Shown here: in pieces, positions 48,072 to 54,343 of the stretch
Layout of the letters: each line of letters begins with the position of its first letter
Position numbering within the stretch: position 1 is the stretch's first letter
Origin: Streptomyces sp. NBC_01304
GTDB taxonomy: Bacteria; Actinomycetota; Actinomycetes; Streptomycetales; Streptomycetaceae
Direction of reading: 5' to 3'
Assembly: GCF_035975855.1 (NCBI RefSeq)
Contig: NZ_CP109055.1
Location: 5,022,001-5,086,000 of the forward strand
DNA: 64,000 nt
Program-made: the position numbers and the translations under genes
The notes under the pieces: generated by a model
What the model saw: only the letters and a program-made list of their open reading frames with translations
What the model was told of the DNA's origin: nothing
The model's database searches: none

Positions 48072-48743
48072 TCAGGCGCCTCCGCCGGCGCGCACCAGGC
48101 CCGTCTCATAGGCGAGGACCACGACCTGGACGCGGTCGCGCAGGCCCAGCTTGGTGAGGATGCGGCCCACGTGGGTCTTCACCGTGGCCTCGGACAGGAC
48201 GAGGCGGCCCGCGATCTCGCCGTTCGACAGGCCCTGCGCCACCAGGATCATGACCTCGCGCTCGCGGTCCGTGAGGCGCTCCAGCTCCTTGTGCTGGTTG
48301 CCCTTGCCGCTGTCGGGCAGCATCGGCGCGAAACGGTCCAGGAGGCGGCGCGTGGTGGTGGGCGCGACGACCGCGTCACCGCTGTGCACGGACCGGATGG
48401 CGGCGAGGAGTTCGGCCGGCGGCACGTCCTTGAGCATGAAGCCGGAGGCACCCGCCTTCAGCCCCGAGAAGGCGTACTCGTCGAGGTCGAAGGTGGTCAG
48501 GATCAGCACCTTGGGCGGGTCGGGCTGCGCGCAGATCCGGCCGGTCGCCTCGACGCCGTCCAGCCTCGGCATGCGTACGTCCATCAACACCACGTCCACC
48601 GGCGTGGACTTGAGGACCTCCAGGGCCTCGGCCCCGTCGCCCGCCTCCGCGACGACCTCCATGTCCGGCTGTGCGGCGAGCACCATGCGGAAGCCGGTAC
48701 GCAGGAGCGCCTGGTCGTCGACGAGCATTACGCGGATCGCCAT
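48072..48743 (-). CDS. NarL/LuxR-type response regulator
   Basis: The 223-aa protein (ATG 48743; GGAGG 10 nt upstream, the ATG at 48752 being too close to it) has the receiver MLVDDQALLRTGF, phosphoacceptor Asp55 in LMDVRMPRLDG, and TTF/FMLKD. The LuxR HTH is LTDREREVMILVAQGLSNGEIAGRLVLSEATVKTHVGRIL. It is 48 bp downstream of its cognate kinase gene and directly upstream of the TmrB-like gene. Targets unknown. Confidence 0.95.
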   Translation of the reverse strand: MAIRVMLVDDQALLRTGFRMVLAAQPDMEVVAEAGDGAEALEVLKSTPVDVVLMDVRMPRLDGVEATGRICAQPDPPKVLILTTFDLDEYAFSGLKAGASGFMLKDVPPAELLAAIRSVHSGDAVVAPTTTRRLLDRFAPMLPDSGKGNQHKELERLTDREREVMILVAQGLSNGEIAGRLVLSEATVKTHVGRILTKLGLRDRVQVVVLAYETGLVRAGGGA

Positions 48744-48791
48744 GTCCGGCATTCCTCCAAGGTCATAAAGCGGGGCAAGTACTGACAGGTG

Positions 48792-50033
48792 TCAGTGGGC
48801 GGGCTTGAGCGGCAACAGTGCGCTGATGCGGAACCCGCCGCCGGGCCGGGGCCCCGCGTCGAGCGTGCCGCCGACCATACCGACGCGCTCGCGCATGCCG
48901 ATCAGGCCGTGGCCGCGGCCGTCGGCGCCGCCGTCCTCGTACAGCTCGTGCGGGGCGCCCTTGCCGTCGTCCTCGACGAGCAGGCCGAGCCCGTCGTCGA
49001 AGTAGACGATGCGCACGCTCGCCCCGGCGTTCTCACCGCCGTGCTTACGGGTGTTGGTGAGGGCCTCCTGCACGATGCGGTAGGCCGTGAGCTCGACGCC
49101 GCTGGGCAGCGGGCGCGCGGTGCCCTCGATCTTGAAGTCGACGGTGAGGCCCGAGGAGCGCACCTGCTCGATGAGGTCGTCGATCTGCTCGACATCGGGC
49201 TGCGGGACGTATTCGCCGCCCTCGCGCGGCTCCCCGGTGCGCAGCACGCCGAGCAGCCGGCGCATCTCGGCGAGGGCCTGCCGGCCGGTTCCGGAGATGG
49301 TCTCCAGGGCCTTCTTGGCCTGGTCGGGCGCGTTGTCCATGACGTACGCGGCGCCGTCGGCCTGCACGACCATCACCGACACGTTGTGCGCGACGACGTC
49401 GTGCAGCTCGCGGGCGATCCGGGCCCGCTCGGCCGCGACCGCGACCTTGGCCTGGGCCTCGCGCTCCTGCTCCAGGCGGGTGTTGCGCTCCTCGAGCTGG
49501 GCGAAGTAGGCGCGCCGGGTGCGGATCGAGTCGCCGAGCACCCAGGCGAGCACGAAGGGCAGCATCGAGAACCCGGCGAAGAGGATGTTGCCCCACGAGC
49601 CGGTGTTCTCGTCGGGCCAGCGCAGCTGCGCGATCGGCGCCGCGAGCACGCCGCCGATCAGCGCGAACCTGCGGGCCCACACGGCGCCCTCCGCGGCCAC
49701 GGTGTAGATGATCACCAGCATCGCGAAGTCGGTCGGCATCACACCGATGTCGACGATCACCTGGACGACGCCCATGAAGGCCGAGAGCAGCAGCATCTTC
49801 TCGGGGGCGCGGCGGCGCAGCGCCACGACCACGCACTGCGTCACGACGATCAGCACCCCGACGCCGAGCTGCCAGTCGGCATAGCGCTGGATGCCCCGGG
49901 CGGCCTCGTCCACGTCCTGCGGGCCGTTCCCCATGGCGAACAGCCCCACGAGCGACACCAGGAACAGGACGACAGCCCAGAAGCTGTCGACACCGGTCGG
50001 GTGTCTGCGGAGGAAGTCGTAGAGGCGCTGCAC
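48792..50033 (-). CDS. HisKA_3-type sensor histidine kinase
   Basis: About 413 aa from GTG 50033 (VQRLYDFLRRHPTGVDSFWA; GTG 50060 is an alternative). It has five or six N-terminal transmembrane helices, a coiled-coil (LEERNTRLEQEREAQAKVAVAAE), an H-box RIARELHDVVAHNVSVMVVQADGA (His about 211) and an HATPase (ALTNTRKHGG, VEDDGKGA, GHGLIGMRERVGMVGG). It pairs with the response regulator downstream. No dedicated extracellular sensor domain is present; sensing is likely within the membrane. Confidence 0.95.
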   Translation of the reverse strand: MQRLYDFLRRHPTGVDSFWAVVLFLVSLVGLFAMGNGPQDVDEAARGIQRYADWQLGVGVLIVVTQCVVVALRRRAPEKMLLLSAFMGVVQVIVDIGVMPTDFAMLVIIYTVAAEGAVWARRFALIGGVLAAPIAQLRWPDENTGSWGNILFAGFSMLPFVLAWVLGDSIRTRRAYFAQLEERNTRLEQEREAQAKVAVAAERARIARELHDVVAHNVSVMVVQADGAAYVMDNAPDQAKKALETISGTGRQALAEMRRLLGVLRTGEPREGGEYVPQPDVEQIDDLIEQVRSSGLTVDFKIEGTARPLPSGVELTAYRIVQEALTNTRKHGGENAGASVRIVYFDDGLGLLVEDDGKGAPHELYEDGGADGRGHGLIGMRERVGMVGGTLDAGPRPGGGFRISALLPLKPAH

Positions 50034-50139
50034 GTAACCCAGCGTAGGTACGTGCCACACGTGCGGGGGTCAACCGCAGGTTCGATCCGTGGACCGGGCG
50101 CCTACTCCCCAAGGTGGAGGTCCCCATAGCCTGCGGTCT

Positions 50140-51267
50140 GTGAAGAACGGCGACGCGACGGACGAGACGGGCACGGGACACGGGTGGCGCGGGTGGCGCG
50201 AGGCGGCCGCCGAAGCGCTCTACGGACCCGGCGGCTTCTATCTGCGCCCCGAGGGCCCGGCCGGTCATTTCCGCACGTCAGTGCATGCGTCACCGCTGTA
50301 CGCGGCCGCTGTGGCCCGGCTCCTTGTACGCGTGGACGAGGCCCTGGGCCGGCCGCCCGAGCTGGCTTTCGTGGACGTCGGGGCGGGGCGCGGGGAGCTC
50401 TCGGCGGGCGTGCTCGCGGCGCTGCCCGCAGAAGTGGCGGCACGCGCGCGTGCCCATGCGGTGGAGCTGGCCGCGCGGCCGGAAGGGCTCGACGATCCCC
50501 GGATCGAGTGGACCGCCGAGGTGCCGGTGGGGCTGACGGGGCTGCTGTTCGCGAACGAGTGGCTCGACAATGTGCCGCTTGATGTGGTCGAGGTGGACGA
50601 GGACGGGGTGGCCCGGCTGGTTCTGGTCCGTGCGGACGGCGCGGAATCCCTGGGGGCCGAGCCCGGCGAGGCCGACGCCGCGTGGCTGCGGCAGTGGTGG
50701 CCGTTCGCCGATGCCGACGACGATGCCGGGCCCGGCCTTCGGGCGGAGATCGGCCGGCCTCGCGATGCGGCCTGGGCCAAGGCTGTCGGGTCCCTGGAGC
50801 GCGGCCTCGCCGCGGCCGTCGACTATGCCCACGGGCAGGATTCCCGCCCTCCGTTCGGCACGCTCACCGGCTTCCGCGAGGGCAAGGAGTGCCGGCCCGC
50901 GCCGGACGGGTCCTGCGACATCACCGCTCACGTCGCCCTCGACGCCTGCGCGCAGGCCGCCGCGGACTCCGGGCCCGCCGGGGGGACGTACCGCCTGACC
51001 ACCCAGCGGGAGGCCCTGCACGCCCTCGGCGTGAGCGGCGGCAGGCCCCCACTCGCCCTCGCGGCCGGCGATCCGGCGGCGTACGTCCGCGCGCTCGCCG
51101 GCGCGGGAGAGGCCGCCGAACTCACCGCGAAGGGCGGGCTCGGCGACTTCGGGTGGCTGCTGCAGCCCGTCGGCGTACGGCTGGAAGAGCTGTTTGACGA
51201 CCTACTTGTCGTCGATGGCGAAAATGACGCCCTACTTGTCGATGTCCCCGACCACGAAGAACAGTGA
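50140..51267 (+). CDS. SAM-dependent methyltransferase of the MidA/NDUFAF7 family
   Basis: The 375-aa protein starts at GTG 50140. It has [31 protein letters not shown] motif I as [16 protein letters not shown] (about 77-91), and [16 protein letters not shown] (about 138-152), which matches the family signature ANE(F/W)xDxxP of Methyltransf_28. NDUFAF7 dimethylates an arginine of the complex I 49-kDa subunit (NDUFS2/NuoD). Strikingly, the gene overlaps an orphan nuoD paralogue tail-to-tail by 36 bp. The C-terminal [16 protein letters not shown] reflects a small duplication of the nuoD stop region. The substrate is inferred, not shown. Confidence 0.85.
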
Positions 51268-52416
51268 CCCGAGAATCGCCACCATGTCCGCGACCAGCGT
51301 CCCCGGCAGCAGCACCGCGAGCGCCTGGATGTTGTTGTACGACGCCGAGCGCAGCTTCAGCCGGTACGGGGTCTTCTCGCCCTTGCTGACGAGGTAGTAG
51401 CCGTTGATGCCGAGGGGATTCTCGGTCCAGGCGTACGTATGGCCCTCGGGAGCCTTGAGGACCTTCGGGAGGCGCTGGTTGATCGGGCCCGGCGGCAGGT
51501 CGGCGATGCGGTCGAGGCAGGCGTCGGCGAGGTCGAGGGCGTTGTGGGTCTGCTCCAGGAGCACCTCGAAGCGGGCCAGGCAGTCGCCCTCCTGGCGGGT
51601 CACCACCTTGAGCGTGTCCTGCAGTTCGCCGTAGGCCAGGTACGGCTCGTCGCGGCGCAGGTCGAAGTCGACGCCCGAGGCACGGGCGATCGGACCGCTC
51701 ACGCCGTACGCGTGCACCGCCTCCGGGGACAGCACGCCGACGTTCCGGGTACGGCCGCGGAAGATCTCGTTGCCGAGCACGAGACGGTCGTACACGTCCA
51801 TCCGCGAACGCACCGAGGCGATCGCGGCGCGCACGCGCGTGGTCCAGCCGAGCGGCAGGTCCTCCTTGAGGCCGCCGACGCGGTTGAACATGTAGTGCAT
51901 GCGGCCGCCGGAGACTTCCTCCATGACGGCCTGGAGTTCCTCGCGCTCACGGAAGGCGTGGAACACCGGGGTGATTCCGCCCAGTTCGAGCGGGTACGAA
52001 CCCAGGAACATCAGGTGGTTGAGCGTGCGGTTGAGCTCGGCGAGCAGCGTGCGCGTCCACACGGCGCGCTCGGGGACCTCCATGCCGAGCATCCGCTCCA
52101 CGCCCATGACCACACCGAGCTCGTTCGAGAACGCGGAGAGCCAGTCGTGCCGGTTGGCCAGCATGACGATCTGCCGGTAGTCGCGCGCCTCGAAGAGCTT
52201 CTCGGCGCCGCGGTGCATATAGCCGATGACCGGCTCCGCGTGCTGGATGCGCTCGCCGTCGAGGACGATGCGCAGGCGCAGCACGCCGTGCGTGGACGGG
52301 TGCTGGGGGCCGATGTTGAGCACCATGTCGGTGCTCTCCGCGGCGCCGCCGATGCCGACCGTCGTCGTCTCGCGCTCCGTCTCGGTCACCGTGTTGGGAC
52401 CCGTCTGGGTACTCAT
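51232..52416 (-). CDS. nuoD2: orphan NADH dehydrogenase subunit D-like protein (complex I 49-kDa homologue)
   Basis: The 394-aa protein aligns with NuoD/NDUFS2 throughout: [96 protein letters not shown] and a C-terminal [19 protein letters not shown]. The quinone-site His (STHG, His43) is kept, but the catalytic Tyr position (DY in complex I) is Trp92 here (RHDWLSAF), and the Asp of the LDLG motif is Glu. No other nuo genes are near. It may have a changed or lost quinone reaction. Confidence 0.9.
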
Positions 52417-52448: not shown

Positions 52449-53003
52449 ATGGAAACGGGGATGCAGGGGATGACGGGCGACGGCGGCCCGAAGGCCGAAC
52501 CGCCGGGTGCCGCCCCGGGGACAGAGGCCGCGAAGGCGCTGGAACCGGTGTGGACCGGGCTGCCGCAGGCGATGCTGACGATGCGCAGGCTGCTGCTCGT
52601 GGTGTGGCTCGGTCCGCTCGCGGTCGGGCTCGCGCTGCTGCTCTGGCTGACCGCGGGGCCGGTGTGGGCGGCGTTCGCGCTGATTCCGGCCGGGCTTCTG
52701 GTGTGGGGCTGGCCGATGCTGGGACGCAACTGGCGGTCGTGGCGGTATGCCGAGCGGGCCGACGACCTGCTGATCCAGCGCGGGGTGCTGTGGCGCGAGG
52801 AGACGGTGGTGCCGTACGGCCGGATGCAGCTGGTCGAGGTGGAATCGGGGCCGCTGCAGCGGAAGTTCGGGCTCGCGAGCCTGCAGCTGCACACGGCGGC
52901 CGCGGCGACCGACGCGACGATCCCCGGGCTCGACCCGGCGGAGGCCGAGCGACTGCGGGACCGGCTGACGGAGCTGGGCGAGGCACGATCGGCGGGGCTG
53001 TGA
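52449..53003 (+). CDS. bacterial PH-domain membrane protein (YdbS-like)
   Basis: The 184-aa product has a Gly/Pro-rich N-terminus, two transmembrane helices (LLLVVWLGPLAVGLALLLWL, VWAAFALIPAGLLVWGW) and a bPH_2 domain: RYAERADDLLIQRGVLWREETVVPYGRMQLVEVESGPLQRKFGLASLQLHTA pattern. It overlaps the next gene by four bases (GTGA). YdbS and YdbT of Bacillus form a similar pair acting in the envelope. Confidence 0.92.
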   Translation: METGMQGMTGDGGPKAEPPGAAPGTEAAKALEPVWTGLPQAMLTMRRLLLVVWLGPLAVGLALLLWLTAGPVWAAFALIPAGLLVWGWPMLGRNWRSWRYAERADDLLIQRGVLWREETVVPYGRMQLVEVESGPLQRKFGLASLQLHTAAAATDATIPGLDPAEAERLRDRLTELGEARSAGL

Positions 53004-54343
53004 GCGGCGACGAACCCACGACAAAGCAGTCTTCACAGGACGTGCAGGAGCGGCGACTGCACCCCGTCACCCCGCTGCGGCGGGCCTGGGCGCCCTTCGC
53101 GGTGATCACCGGGTGGGCCGTGCACGACGTGGGCGAGGCGCAGCGGCGGGTCTCCGACCTGGGGCCGGCGTACCTGCTGCTCGGGGCCTTCGGACTGCTG
53201 GTGTGCGGGGCGCTCTACGGCTTCCTGAGCTGGTGGTTCACGCACTTCGCCGTCACGGAGACCGAACTGCGGGTGCGGACCGGGCTGATCTTCCGGCGCA
53301 CCGCGCACATCCGCCTCGACCGGCTCCAGGCCGTCGACATCAACCAGCCGCTGTTCGCCCGCTTCTTGGGCGTGGTCAAGCTGAAGATGGACGTCATCGG
53401 GACGGACTCCAAGGACGAGCTGGCCTATCTGGGCGAGCGGGACGCGCGGGCGCTGCGGGCCGAACTGCTCGCCCGCGCGGCCGGGTTCGCGCCCGAGACG
53501 GCGCACGAGGTGGGCGAGGCGCCGGTGGAGGGGCTGCTGCACGTGGCGCCGGGCCGGCTCGCGGTGGCGATGGTGCTCTCCGCCTCCACCTGGGCGCTGC
53601 TCCTTGCCGCGCTGGTGGTGCCGCCGCTCCTCTGGTTCGCGACGCACAGCTGGGGGCTGCTGCTCGGCACCGGCATCCCGCTGCTCGGCGGGGCCGGGGC
53701 GAGCACGGTGGGGCGGTTCGTGAAGGAGTACGACTGGACGGTGGGCGAGTCGCCGGACGGGCTGCGCATCGACCACGGGCTGCTCGACAAGGCCCATGAG
53801 ACGGTGCCGCCGGGGCGGGTGCAGACCGTGCGCATCGTGGAGCCGCTGCTGTGGCGCAGGCGGGGCTGGGTGCGGGTGGAGCTGGCGGTCGCGGGCTCGT
53901 CCAACAGCGTGCTTGTGCCGGTGGCGCCGCGGGAGTTGGCCGAGTCGGTGATCGCCCGGATCCTGCCGGGGGTGCGGGTGCCGGCGGCGGCCGAGCTGGT
54001 GCGGCCGCCGAAGCGGTCGTGGTGGTGTGTGCCGGTGTGGTGGCGCGGTTATGGGTTCGCGGTCACGGACCAGGTGTTCGCGGCGGGTTCGGGCGTGGTC
54101 TCGCGCACGCTGTCGCTGGTGCCGCACGCCAAGGTGCAGAGCGTACGGCTGACGCAGGGGCCGTGGGAGCGGCTGTGGGGCGTCGCCGACGTACATGTGG
54201 AGACGGGCGCCAACACGACGGTGGCGGCCCGGCTGCGGGATGCAGGCGAGGCGGCGGAGCTGCTGCAGGCGCAGGCGGACCGGTCGCGCACGGGGCGGCG
54301 GACGGCCCGGCCTGACCGGTGGATGGCCGCGCCTGCCGAGTGA
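53000..54343 (+). CDS. bacterial PH-domain membrane protein (YdbT-like, two to three PH domains)
   Basis: The 447-aa protein starts at GTG 53000. It has two N-terminal helices flanking PH unit 1 (FAVTETELRVRTGLIFRRTAHIRLDRLQAVDINQPLFARFLG pattern), two more helices (ALLLAALVVPPLLWF, LLLGTGIPLLGGAGAS), PH unit 2 (LRIDHGLLDKAHETVPPGRVQTVRIVEPLL) and a third PH-like unit (FAVTDQVFAAGSGVVSRTLSLVPHAKVQSVRLTQGPWERLWG). It is translationally coupled to the YdbS-like gene. Precise role unknown. Confidence 0.92.
   Translation: MSGDEPTTKQSSQDVQERRLHPVTPLRRAWAPFAVITGWAVHDVGEAQRRVSDLGPAYLLLGAFGLLVCGALYGFLSWWFTHFAVTETELRVRTGLIFRRTAHIRLDRLQAVDINQPLFARFLGVVKLKMDVIGTDSKDELAYLGERDARALRAELLARAAGFAPETAHEVGEAPVEGLLHVAPGRLAVAMVLSASTWALLLAALVVPPLLWFATHSWGLLLGTGIPLLGGAGASTVGRFVKEYDWTVGESPDGLRIDHGLLDKAHETVPPGRVQTVRIVEPLLWRRRGWVRVELAVAGSSNSVLVPVAPRELAESVIARILPGVRVPAAAELVRPPKRSWWCVPVWWRGYGFAVTDQVFAAGSGVVSRTLSLVPHAKVQSVRLTQGPWERLWGVADVHVETGANTTVAARLRDAGEAAELLQAQADRSRTGRRTARPDRWMAAPAE

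Follow-up and report, generated by a model that had tools for sequence, protein, structure and literature searches.

What is the function of a putative methyltransferase gene that overlaps a second copy of nuoD, far from any other complex I gene? The question is raised by a locus in the 11-Mb genome of Streptomyces sp. NBC_01304, which was analysed within a window of 64,000 nucleotides (contig positions 5022001-5086000). The forward-strand gene at 50140..51267 starts with GTG at position 50140 (alternative GTG at 50089) and encodes a 375-residue protein assigned to the MidA/NDUFAF7 family of SAM-dependent methyltransferases. The gene on the reverse strand at 51232..52416, nuoD2, encodes a homologue of the 49-kDa (D) subunit of complex I. 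The two coding sequences overlap tail to tail by 36 bp (51232..51267), and ORF analysis, the sequence and Pfam confirmed this arrangement of a Methyltransf_28 gene and a nuoD homologue, as an earlier sequence-only reading had described it. The pair is flanked by a LuxR-type two-component pair upstream of the methyltransferase (48072-50060, reverse strand) and by two genes of bacterial PH-domain proteins beyond nuoD2 (52449-54343, forward strand), both recognised from ORFs and Pfam. Where the two genes converge, PH-domain genes follow beyond nuoD2, and a histidine kinase resembling that of the window adjoins the methyltransferase in 56 of 68 loci inspected, several of the remaining loci ending early.

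The methyltransferase is the only match to Methyltransf_28 (PF02636) in the whole genome by profile search. Its score of 70.8 bits exceeds the cut-off of 23.3 and places it with MidA/NDUFAF7 (Methyltransf_28, COG1565), and its predicted structure shows the MidA fold across most of the chain (structure comparison with VIA-align 2). The protein carries a SAM-binding motif (50371..50400, forward strand), with V, GAG and G invariant across five diverse family members, and the NE.xD..P motif of the MidA family, in the form NE.LD..P (50548..50577, forward strand), with N, E, L, D and P invariant across five diverse members. Among 36 aligned Streptomyces methyltransferases, N-E-x-L-D-N-V-P is invariant and the SAM motif is mostly invariant or nearly so. 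By profile and modelled fold, the window gene is thus a methyltransferase of the MidA/NDUFAF7 family, of which the Streptomyces proteins are divergent members (70.8 bits, compared with up to 205 in other classes). Annotation of the listed relatives stops at (MidA-family) SAM-dependent methyltransferase or hypothetical protein, and the pairing with nuoD2 offers the gene a more specific candidate function.

PF00346 matches reveal two NuoD genes in the genome, one in the main nuo cluster (NuoD1) and the window copy, which is matched as two stretches. NuoD2 scores 235.5 bits against Complex1_49kDa (PF00346; cut-off 24) and passes NCBIfam PRK06075 (372.5; cut-off 360), and it falls below the cut-offs of the canonical NuoD equivalogs (381.4 bits against 459.35 for TIGR01962, and 386.9 against 522 for PRK12322). 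Alignment shows that approximately 40 residues of NuoD1, ahead of the C-terminal part, are missing from NuoD2. A second nuoH was located by profile search at C1:4846000 of the host genome (G000), and the fetched region that holds it (L009) contains a nuo2 cluster with the order nuoA2-B2-C2-H2-I2-J2-K2-L2-M2-N2, in which no D, E, F or G match was detected. The copy of nuoD in the window lies approximately 224 kb from nuoA2; this separation in Streptomyces has already been published (PMC8388888, PMC3765725). Together, nuo2 and nuoD2 comprise the 11-subunit set of complex I, with A, B, C, D and H-N present and E/F/G absent from the cluster, and in the NuoD tree NuoD2 falls with the NuoD proteins of nuo2 operons. 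On its PF00346 match, this tree grouping and the NuoB2 residue switch described below, NuoD2 is assigned as the D subunit otherwise lacking from a second 11-subunit complex I without E/F/G. The term 'orphan', applied to it in the sequence-only reading, holds for its location and not otherwise: an unattached subunit is ruled out by the D-less nuo2 cluster at that distance and by the NuoB switch.

Several features of the second complex stand apart from the methyltransferase. Trp92 of NuoD2 (RHDWLSAF) aligns with the quinone-site tyrosine, Tyr87 of Thermus thermophilus Nqo4; this position is Trp in 69 and Tyr in 19 of 88 Arg-type NuoD tips, and Tyr in 18 of 18 Thr-type tips. The literature search found no paper on Y144W. 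Quinone handling of the second complex may differ, given the Trp at this position. The nuoC2 frame (L009:8938-9840) runs on into a Pro-, Ala-, Ser- and Glu-rich tail of approximately 300 residues, and NuoC1 (248 aa) has no tail of this kind. Beside nuo2, a korA-like 2-oxoacid:ferredoxin oxidoreductase gene and a korB-like next ORF were recognised by eye (L009:15625-18000; G000:C1:4853625-4856000), and a Streptomyces nuoABC-korAB synteny has been remarked on (PMC13118837). The korA-like neighbour hints that ferredoxin may be the electron donor of the second complex.

The two NuoD proteins of the host differ at the key residue of a short motif, which reads GYMHRGAEK in NuoD2 (G65-Y-M-H68-R69-G70-A-E-K) and GYLHTGIEK in NuoD1. 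Sequence and pattern position identify Arg69, encoded at 52210..52212 on the reverse strand, as the counterpart of human NDUFS2 Arg85 and the predicted methylation site; the residue had been singled out in MHRGAEK from the letters alone, and it stands. Arginine occupies the site in every NuoD2-type locus read. NuoD1 has Thr, and therefore offers no arginine for methylation at that site; because it reads HTGIEK, only NuoD2 of the two can, from the residues present, be an arginine substrate. The earlier proposal that the target is not the main complex I subunit thus has a firmer footing than its reader could have known. The arginine of this motif is the site of methylation in human, where NDUFAF7 is reported to methylate NDUFS2 Arg85 (PMC3829151, PMC3750175). 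The same arginine is dimethylated in Paracoccus and is reported as unmodified in Escherichia coli (PMC3750175), and it is described as needed for cluster N2 (PMC8042128).

A second residue ties NuoD2 to its complex. NuoB1 reads AGRVSQKM and NuoB2 reads SGTVTDKM, so that an arginine is present in one partner of each pair. This reciprocal switch was observed in all 83 fetched loci in which both sites were readable (53 NuoD-Arg/NuoB-Thr and 30 NuoD-Thr/NuoB-Arg), and in 71 of 71 distinct NuoD/NuoB pairs (41 with Arg-type and 30 with Thr-type NuoD). As the pattern held throughout, NuoD2 matches NuoB2, not NuoB1, and this residue-level test assigns the separately located nuoD2 to the second Streptomyces complex. 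In T. thermophilus, which has Thr at the site, Arg83 of Nqo6, the NuoB homologue, fills the same space in an inter-subunit switch (PMC8042128). The Nqo4-Thr/Nqo6-Arg83 combination is the same swap as NuoD1-Thr/NuoB1-Arg; in Streptomyces, by contrast, both versions occur in one genome and the Arg-type is accompanied by a methyltransferase.

The pairing extends well beyond this genome. Among 147 Streptomycetales genomes, a PF02636 match (E ≤ 0.001) is present in 146 and NuoD2 in all 147. The two genes lie no more than 1 kb apart in 114 genomes, within 10 kb in 27 more (141 of 147 in all) and farther apart in one; in the remaining 5 of 147 the hits are on separate contigs or without a listed position. 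This count used 145 of the 146 methyltransferase genomes, G011 having no listed position and being counted as 'none'. A pairing limited to this genome had been named as the outcome that would speak against the enzyme-substrate idea, and these figures, together with a NuoD2-type gene in 97 of 97 methyltransferase genomes of the class survey, show the opposite.

Gene order is less constant than linkage. The Streptomycetales arrangements comprise 69 convergent, 61 same-strand with the methyltransferase first, 11 divergent and one reversed. In a tree of 48 nuoD2 genes, rooted on an outgroup family (G331) with the root state set as same-strand, the ancestral layout places the methyltransferase ahead of nuoD2 in the same direction, and convergent pairs evolved from it two or more times. 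Stop distances of convergent loci vary from the 36-bp overlap to gaps of more than 100 bp, and the exact 36-bp overlap occurs in only part of the convergent Streptomyces loci (a few overlap values above 1000 were left out as artefacts of extending the hit to the next stop). With variable stop distances, other loci on the same strand and a same-strand ancestor, the overlap was rejected as meaningful in itself; it is a late, local feature.

In the class survey of 295 genomes, in which co-occurrence counts ignore relatedness, the methyltransferase was found in 97, NuoD2 (E ≤ 1e-100) in 89, both in 86 (33 of these in the host's own family) and neither, at these thresholds, in 195. The 11 methyltransferase genomes below the NuoD2 threshold each encode, no more than 2.5 kb from the enzyme, a second NuoD that is more divergent (41-50% identity), with HRG or HRS at the site in 11 of 11 and opposite orientation of the two genes in three (G512, G544 and G558); it is their inclusion that brings the total to 97 of 97. 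NuoD2 occurs with no methyltransferase match in three genomes (G397, G457 and G458). Outside the host's own family, 51 of the 53 genomes with both genes, the site motif having been read in only some of the 53, have them on one contig, all on the same strand with the methyltransferase first, and 49 within 10 kb.

Across the phylum (246 genomes), the methyltransferase is present in 68 genomes and NuoD (E ≤ 1e-40) in 193. All 68 methyltransferase genomes have a NuoD match, and the methyltransferase was found in none of the 53 genomes without a NuoD match at that threshold. Of the 193 NuoD genomes, 132 have an Arg-type NuoD (methyltransferase in 65), 39 have Thr-type NuoD alone (methyltransferase in 3) and 22 are of unresolved type (methyltransferase in none). 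The association of Arg-type NuoD with the methyltransferase has a Fisher p of 1.4e-6, calculated for resolved genomes only, omitting the 22, and ignoring relatedness. Calls were based on exact DNA patterns for HRG and HTG, supplemented by 29 genomes read from fetched loci (HRA, HRS and HRC variants), and pattern matches judged to lie outside NuoD were dropped (G381, G367, G344, G281, G188, G186, and one each in G004 and G000). The 132 Arg-type genomes include 16 placed by pattern alone and not traced to a NuoD gene (14 of f28 and f42, G316 and G168), of which only G316 has the methyltransferase.

Arg-type NuoD is thus present in 65 of 68 methyltransferase genomes, and only Thr-type NuoD was found in the other three (G234, G335 and G382). 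In G382 (L199, G382:C21:961000-973000), the methyltransferase is 54% identical to that of Streptomyces and lies beside a NuoB2-type gene (84% identity); no NuoD2 was found in this assembly, and given the NuoB2-type neighbour its NuoD2 may therefore be missing from the assembly. Among the listed NuoD matches, those with a methyltransferase no more than 10 kb away belong to the NuoD2 type, and none of the Thr-type pattern matches is this close to any methyltransferase of the phylum survey. In 14 genomes, the methyltransferase follows NuoD2 by 7.6-9.1 kb on the same strand; in the three fully read examples (f31, f64 and f25; L193-L195), it stands downstream of nuoN and is itself the final gene of nuo2. 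In f17 (L190-L192), nuoD2 is likewise apart from the other nuo genes and adjoins the methyltransferase. In f18, f22, f33 and f49 (L202-L205), D lies inside the nuo2 operon and the genome has no methyltransferase match. The converse rule, that the arginine requires the enzyme, is false in its strict form: 67 of the 132 Arg-type genomes have no methyltransferase, so arginine alone does not demand it. Among 14 well-known control genomes, PF02636 is present in three, all among the 11 with NuoD, and 8 of these 11 have no PF02636 match.

A scan of GTDB species genomes with the five-member alignment as query identified at least 373 confirmed relatives, of which the best-scoring 80 loci, not a random sample, were kept. 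Over half of these best 80 belong to Acidimicrobiia or its families, the others including Thermoleophilia, Rubrobacter, Streptomyces and Thermomonosporaceae. In 65 of the best 80 of at least 373, nuo genes lie beside the methyltransferase, typically in the order A-B-C-D-H-I-J-K-L-M-N followed by the methyltransferase, with no E/F/G among the hits; many of these contigs end within the nuo cluster. The NuoD site was readable in 35 of the 37 NuoD-holding loci among the 80, with 30 HRGYEK, 5 HRGAEK and no HTG.

On these observations, the window gene probably specifies a protein-arginine methyltransferase of the MidA/NDUFAF7 type that has Arg69 of NuoD2 as its target in the cell, NuoD2 being the quinone-site subunit in a second complex I with 11 subunits (A2 B2 C2 D2 H2-N2). 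The enzyme-substrate couple suggested in the sequence-only reading thus gains support from the fold, the Arg/Thr contrast, the linkage and the co-occurrence, for the second complex only; methyl transfer itself we infer. The enzyme would bind freshly made NuoD2, and Arg69 would be dimethylated, presumably in the symmetrical form, before or during docking of NuoB2 with cluster N2. An analogous assembly-stage step has been proposed for NDUFAF7 (PMC3829151). The dimethylated arginine would then pack against the iron-sulphur cluster N2 and could thereby influence it, and the main 14-subunit complex I would need no methylation step, because NuoB1 supplies the arginine and NuoD1 has Thr.

The methyltransferase might instead act on another substrate, protein or DNA, and be merely a long-standing neighbour of nuoD2. 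DNA methylation by a Wolbachia MidA produced in E. coli has been reported (PMC12455994), inheritance of synteny could by itself account for the neighbour order seen within Streptomyces, and in G335 and G234, which have the enzyme, no NuoD other than the Thr-type was found. This explanation is unlikely, as the link persists across classes in varied layouts (at the end of the nuo2 operon, on the same strand ahead of nuoD2, convergent and divergent), the enzyme is missing from all 53 NuoD-less genomes of the 246, and the residue two positions after the arginine and the presence of the enzyme change together on four branches of the NuoD tree.

Half-empty co-occurrence, with 67 of 132 Arg-type genomes lacking the enzyme, and a convergent gene order in this genome that provides no operon coupling would also fit an assembly chaperone of the NuoD2/NuoB2 pair, with Arg69 left unmodified as in E. 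coli. The conservation of N-E-x-L-D-N-V-P and the SAM motif in the 36 Streptomyces proteins, with a core common to the five diverse members, counts against a pure chaperone, which would not need catalytic motifs, and such a role is considered improbable. Least probable of all is an exchange in which NuoD2 takes the place of the D subunit in the main complex I and the methyltransferase acts on it there: nuoD2 does lie apart from the nuo2 cluster in the host genome, but NuoD2-Arg would then meet NuoB1-Arg, which none of the 71 distinct pairs combines, and the same NuoD type lies inside the nuo2 operon in other Actinomycetota.

The proposed methylation of NuoD2 resembles the action of NDUFAF7/MidA on NDUFS2 Arg85 (human, Dictyostelium) in the fold, the SAM motifs and an arginine in HRGxE beside N2. 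It differs in that the Streptomyces enzyme gene is linked to its presumed substrate, predicted here from sequence, and is tied to a complex without the NADH module, while the main complex uses Thr. A paper of 2018 reportedly argued for a proteobacterial origin of MidA's role. Paracoccus denitrificans has a single 14-subunit complex I. Its dimethylated Arg65 (PMC3750175) likewise belongs to a bacterial Arg-type D subunit, and there the modification has been demonstrated, whereas in the Streptomyces genome two complexes that differ at the site coexist. The NuoEFG-less 11-subunit enzymes of the Desulfitobacterium hafniense type (PMC11238625) have the same set without the NADH-oxidising module; unlike these, Streptomyces has a detached D subunit, kept with a methyltransferase, in which Trp replaces the quinone-site Tyr.

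Of these elements, the enzyme family, the modified arginine, its occurrence in Paracoccus and the Thermus switch were known before. A literature search that reached few subscription papers found no title on the methyltransferase-NuoD2 pairing in Actinomycetota; within the literature searched, the assignment of the enzyme to the second complex alone, the Arg/Thr contrast between two complexes of a single genome, the linkage across the phylum and the HRxF pattern described below are new. According to PMC8042128, a role of dimethyl-arginine in assembly or catalysis awaits confirmation. A convenient bacterium for such work would be Streptomyces, which has Arg and Thr versions of the complex and a single linked methyltransferase gene.

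Presence of the enzyme among Arg-type genomes of the phylum follows the second residue after the arginine. Where this is Phe (HRxF), the methyltransferase is absent from 34 of 35 genomes, and it is present in 64 of the 97 other Arg-type genomes. The combination of HRxF with methyltransferase absence occurs in families f16, f18, f19, f22, f29, f33, f41 and f49. On the 174 branches of the NuoD tree, Phe changes on six, the methyltransferase on eight and both on four (hypergeometric p of 2.7e-5, from simple parsimony on one FastTree tree with 88 Arg-type tips and some weak nodes). Exceptions are G185 (f19), with HRGF and the enzyme, and G282 (HRGY) and G168 (HRGA), without it. E. coli NuoD reads HRGA at the site, and as it is nonetheless unmethylated it also counts against the pattern. 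Read jointly, these data raise the tentative possibility that Actinomycetota offer a natural test of what the methyl-arginine does in complex I. A single cell would hold an Arg-free complex I and a second complex that lacks the NADH module and depends on methyl-arginine, its D subunit, with Trp for the quinone-site Tyr, travelling with its own arginine methyltransferase. Several lineages would have escaped methylation through a change from HR(G/A)[A/Y/M] to HR(G/A)F, the Phe beside the arginine standing in for two methyl groups. Natural relatives that retain the arginine and have lost the methyltransferase would aid study of its purpose; inside f16 and inside f29, close relatives differ in both states in the expected direction.
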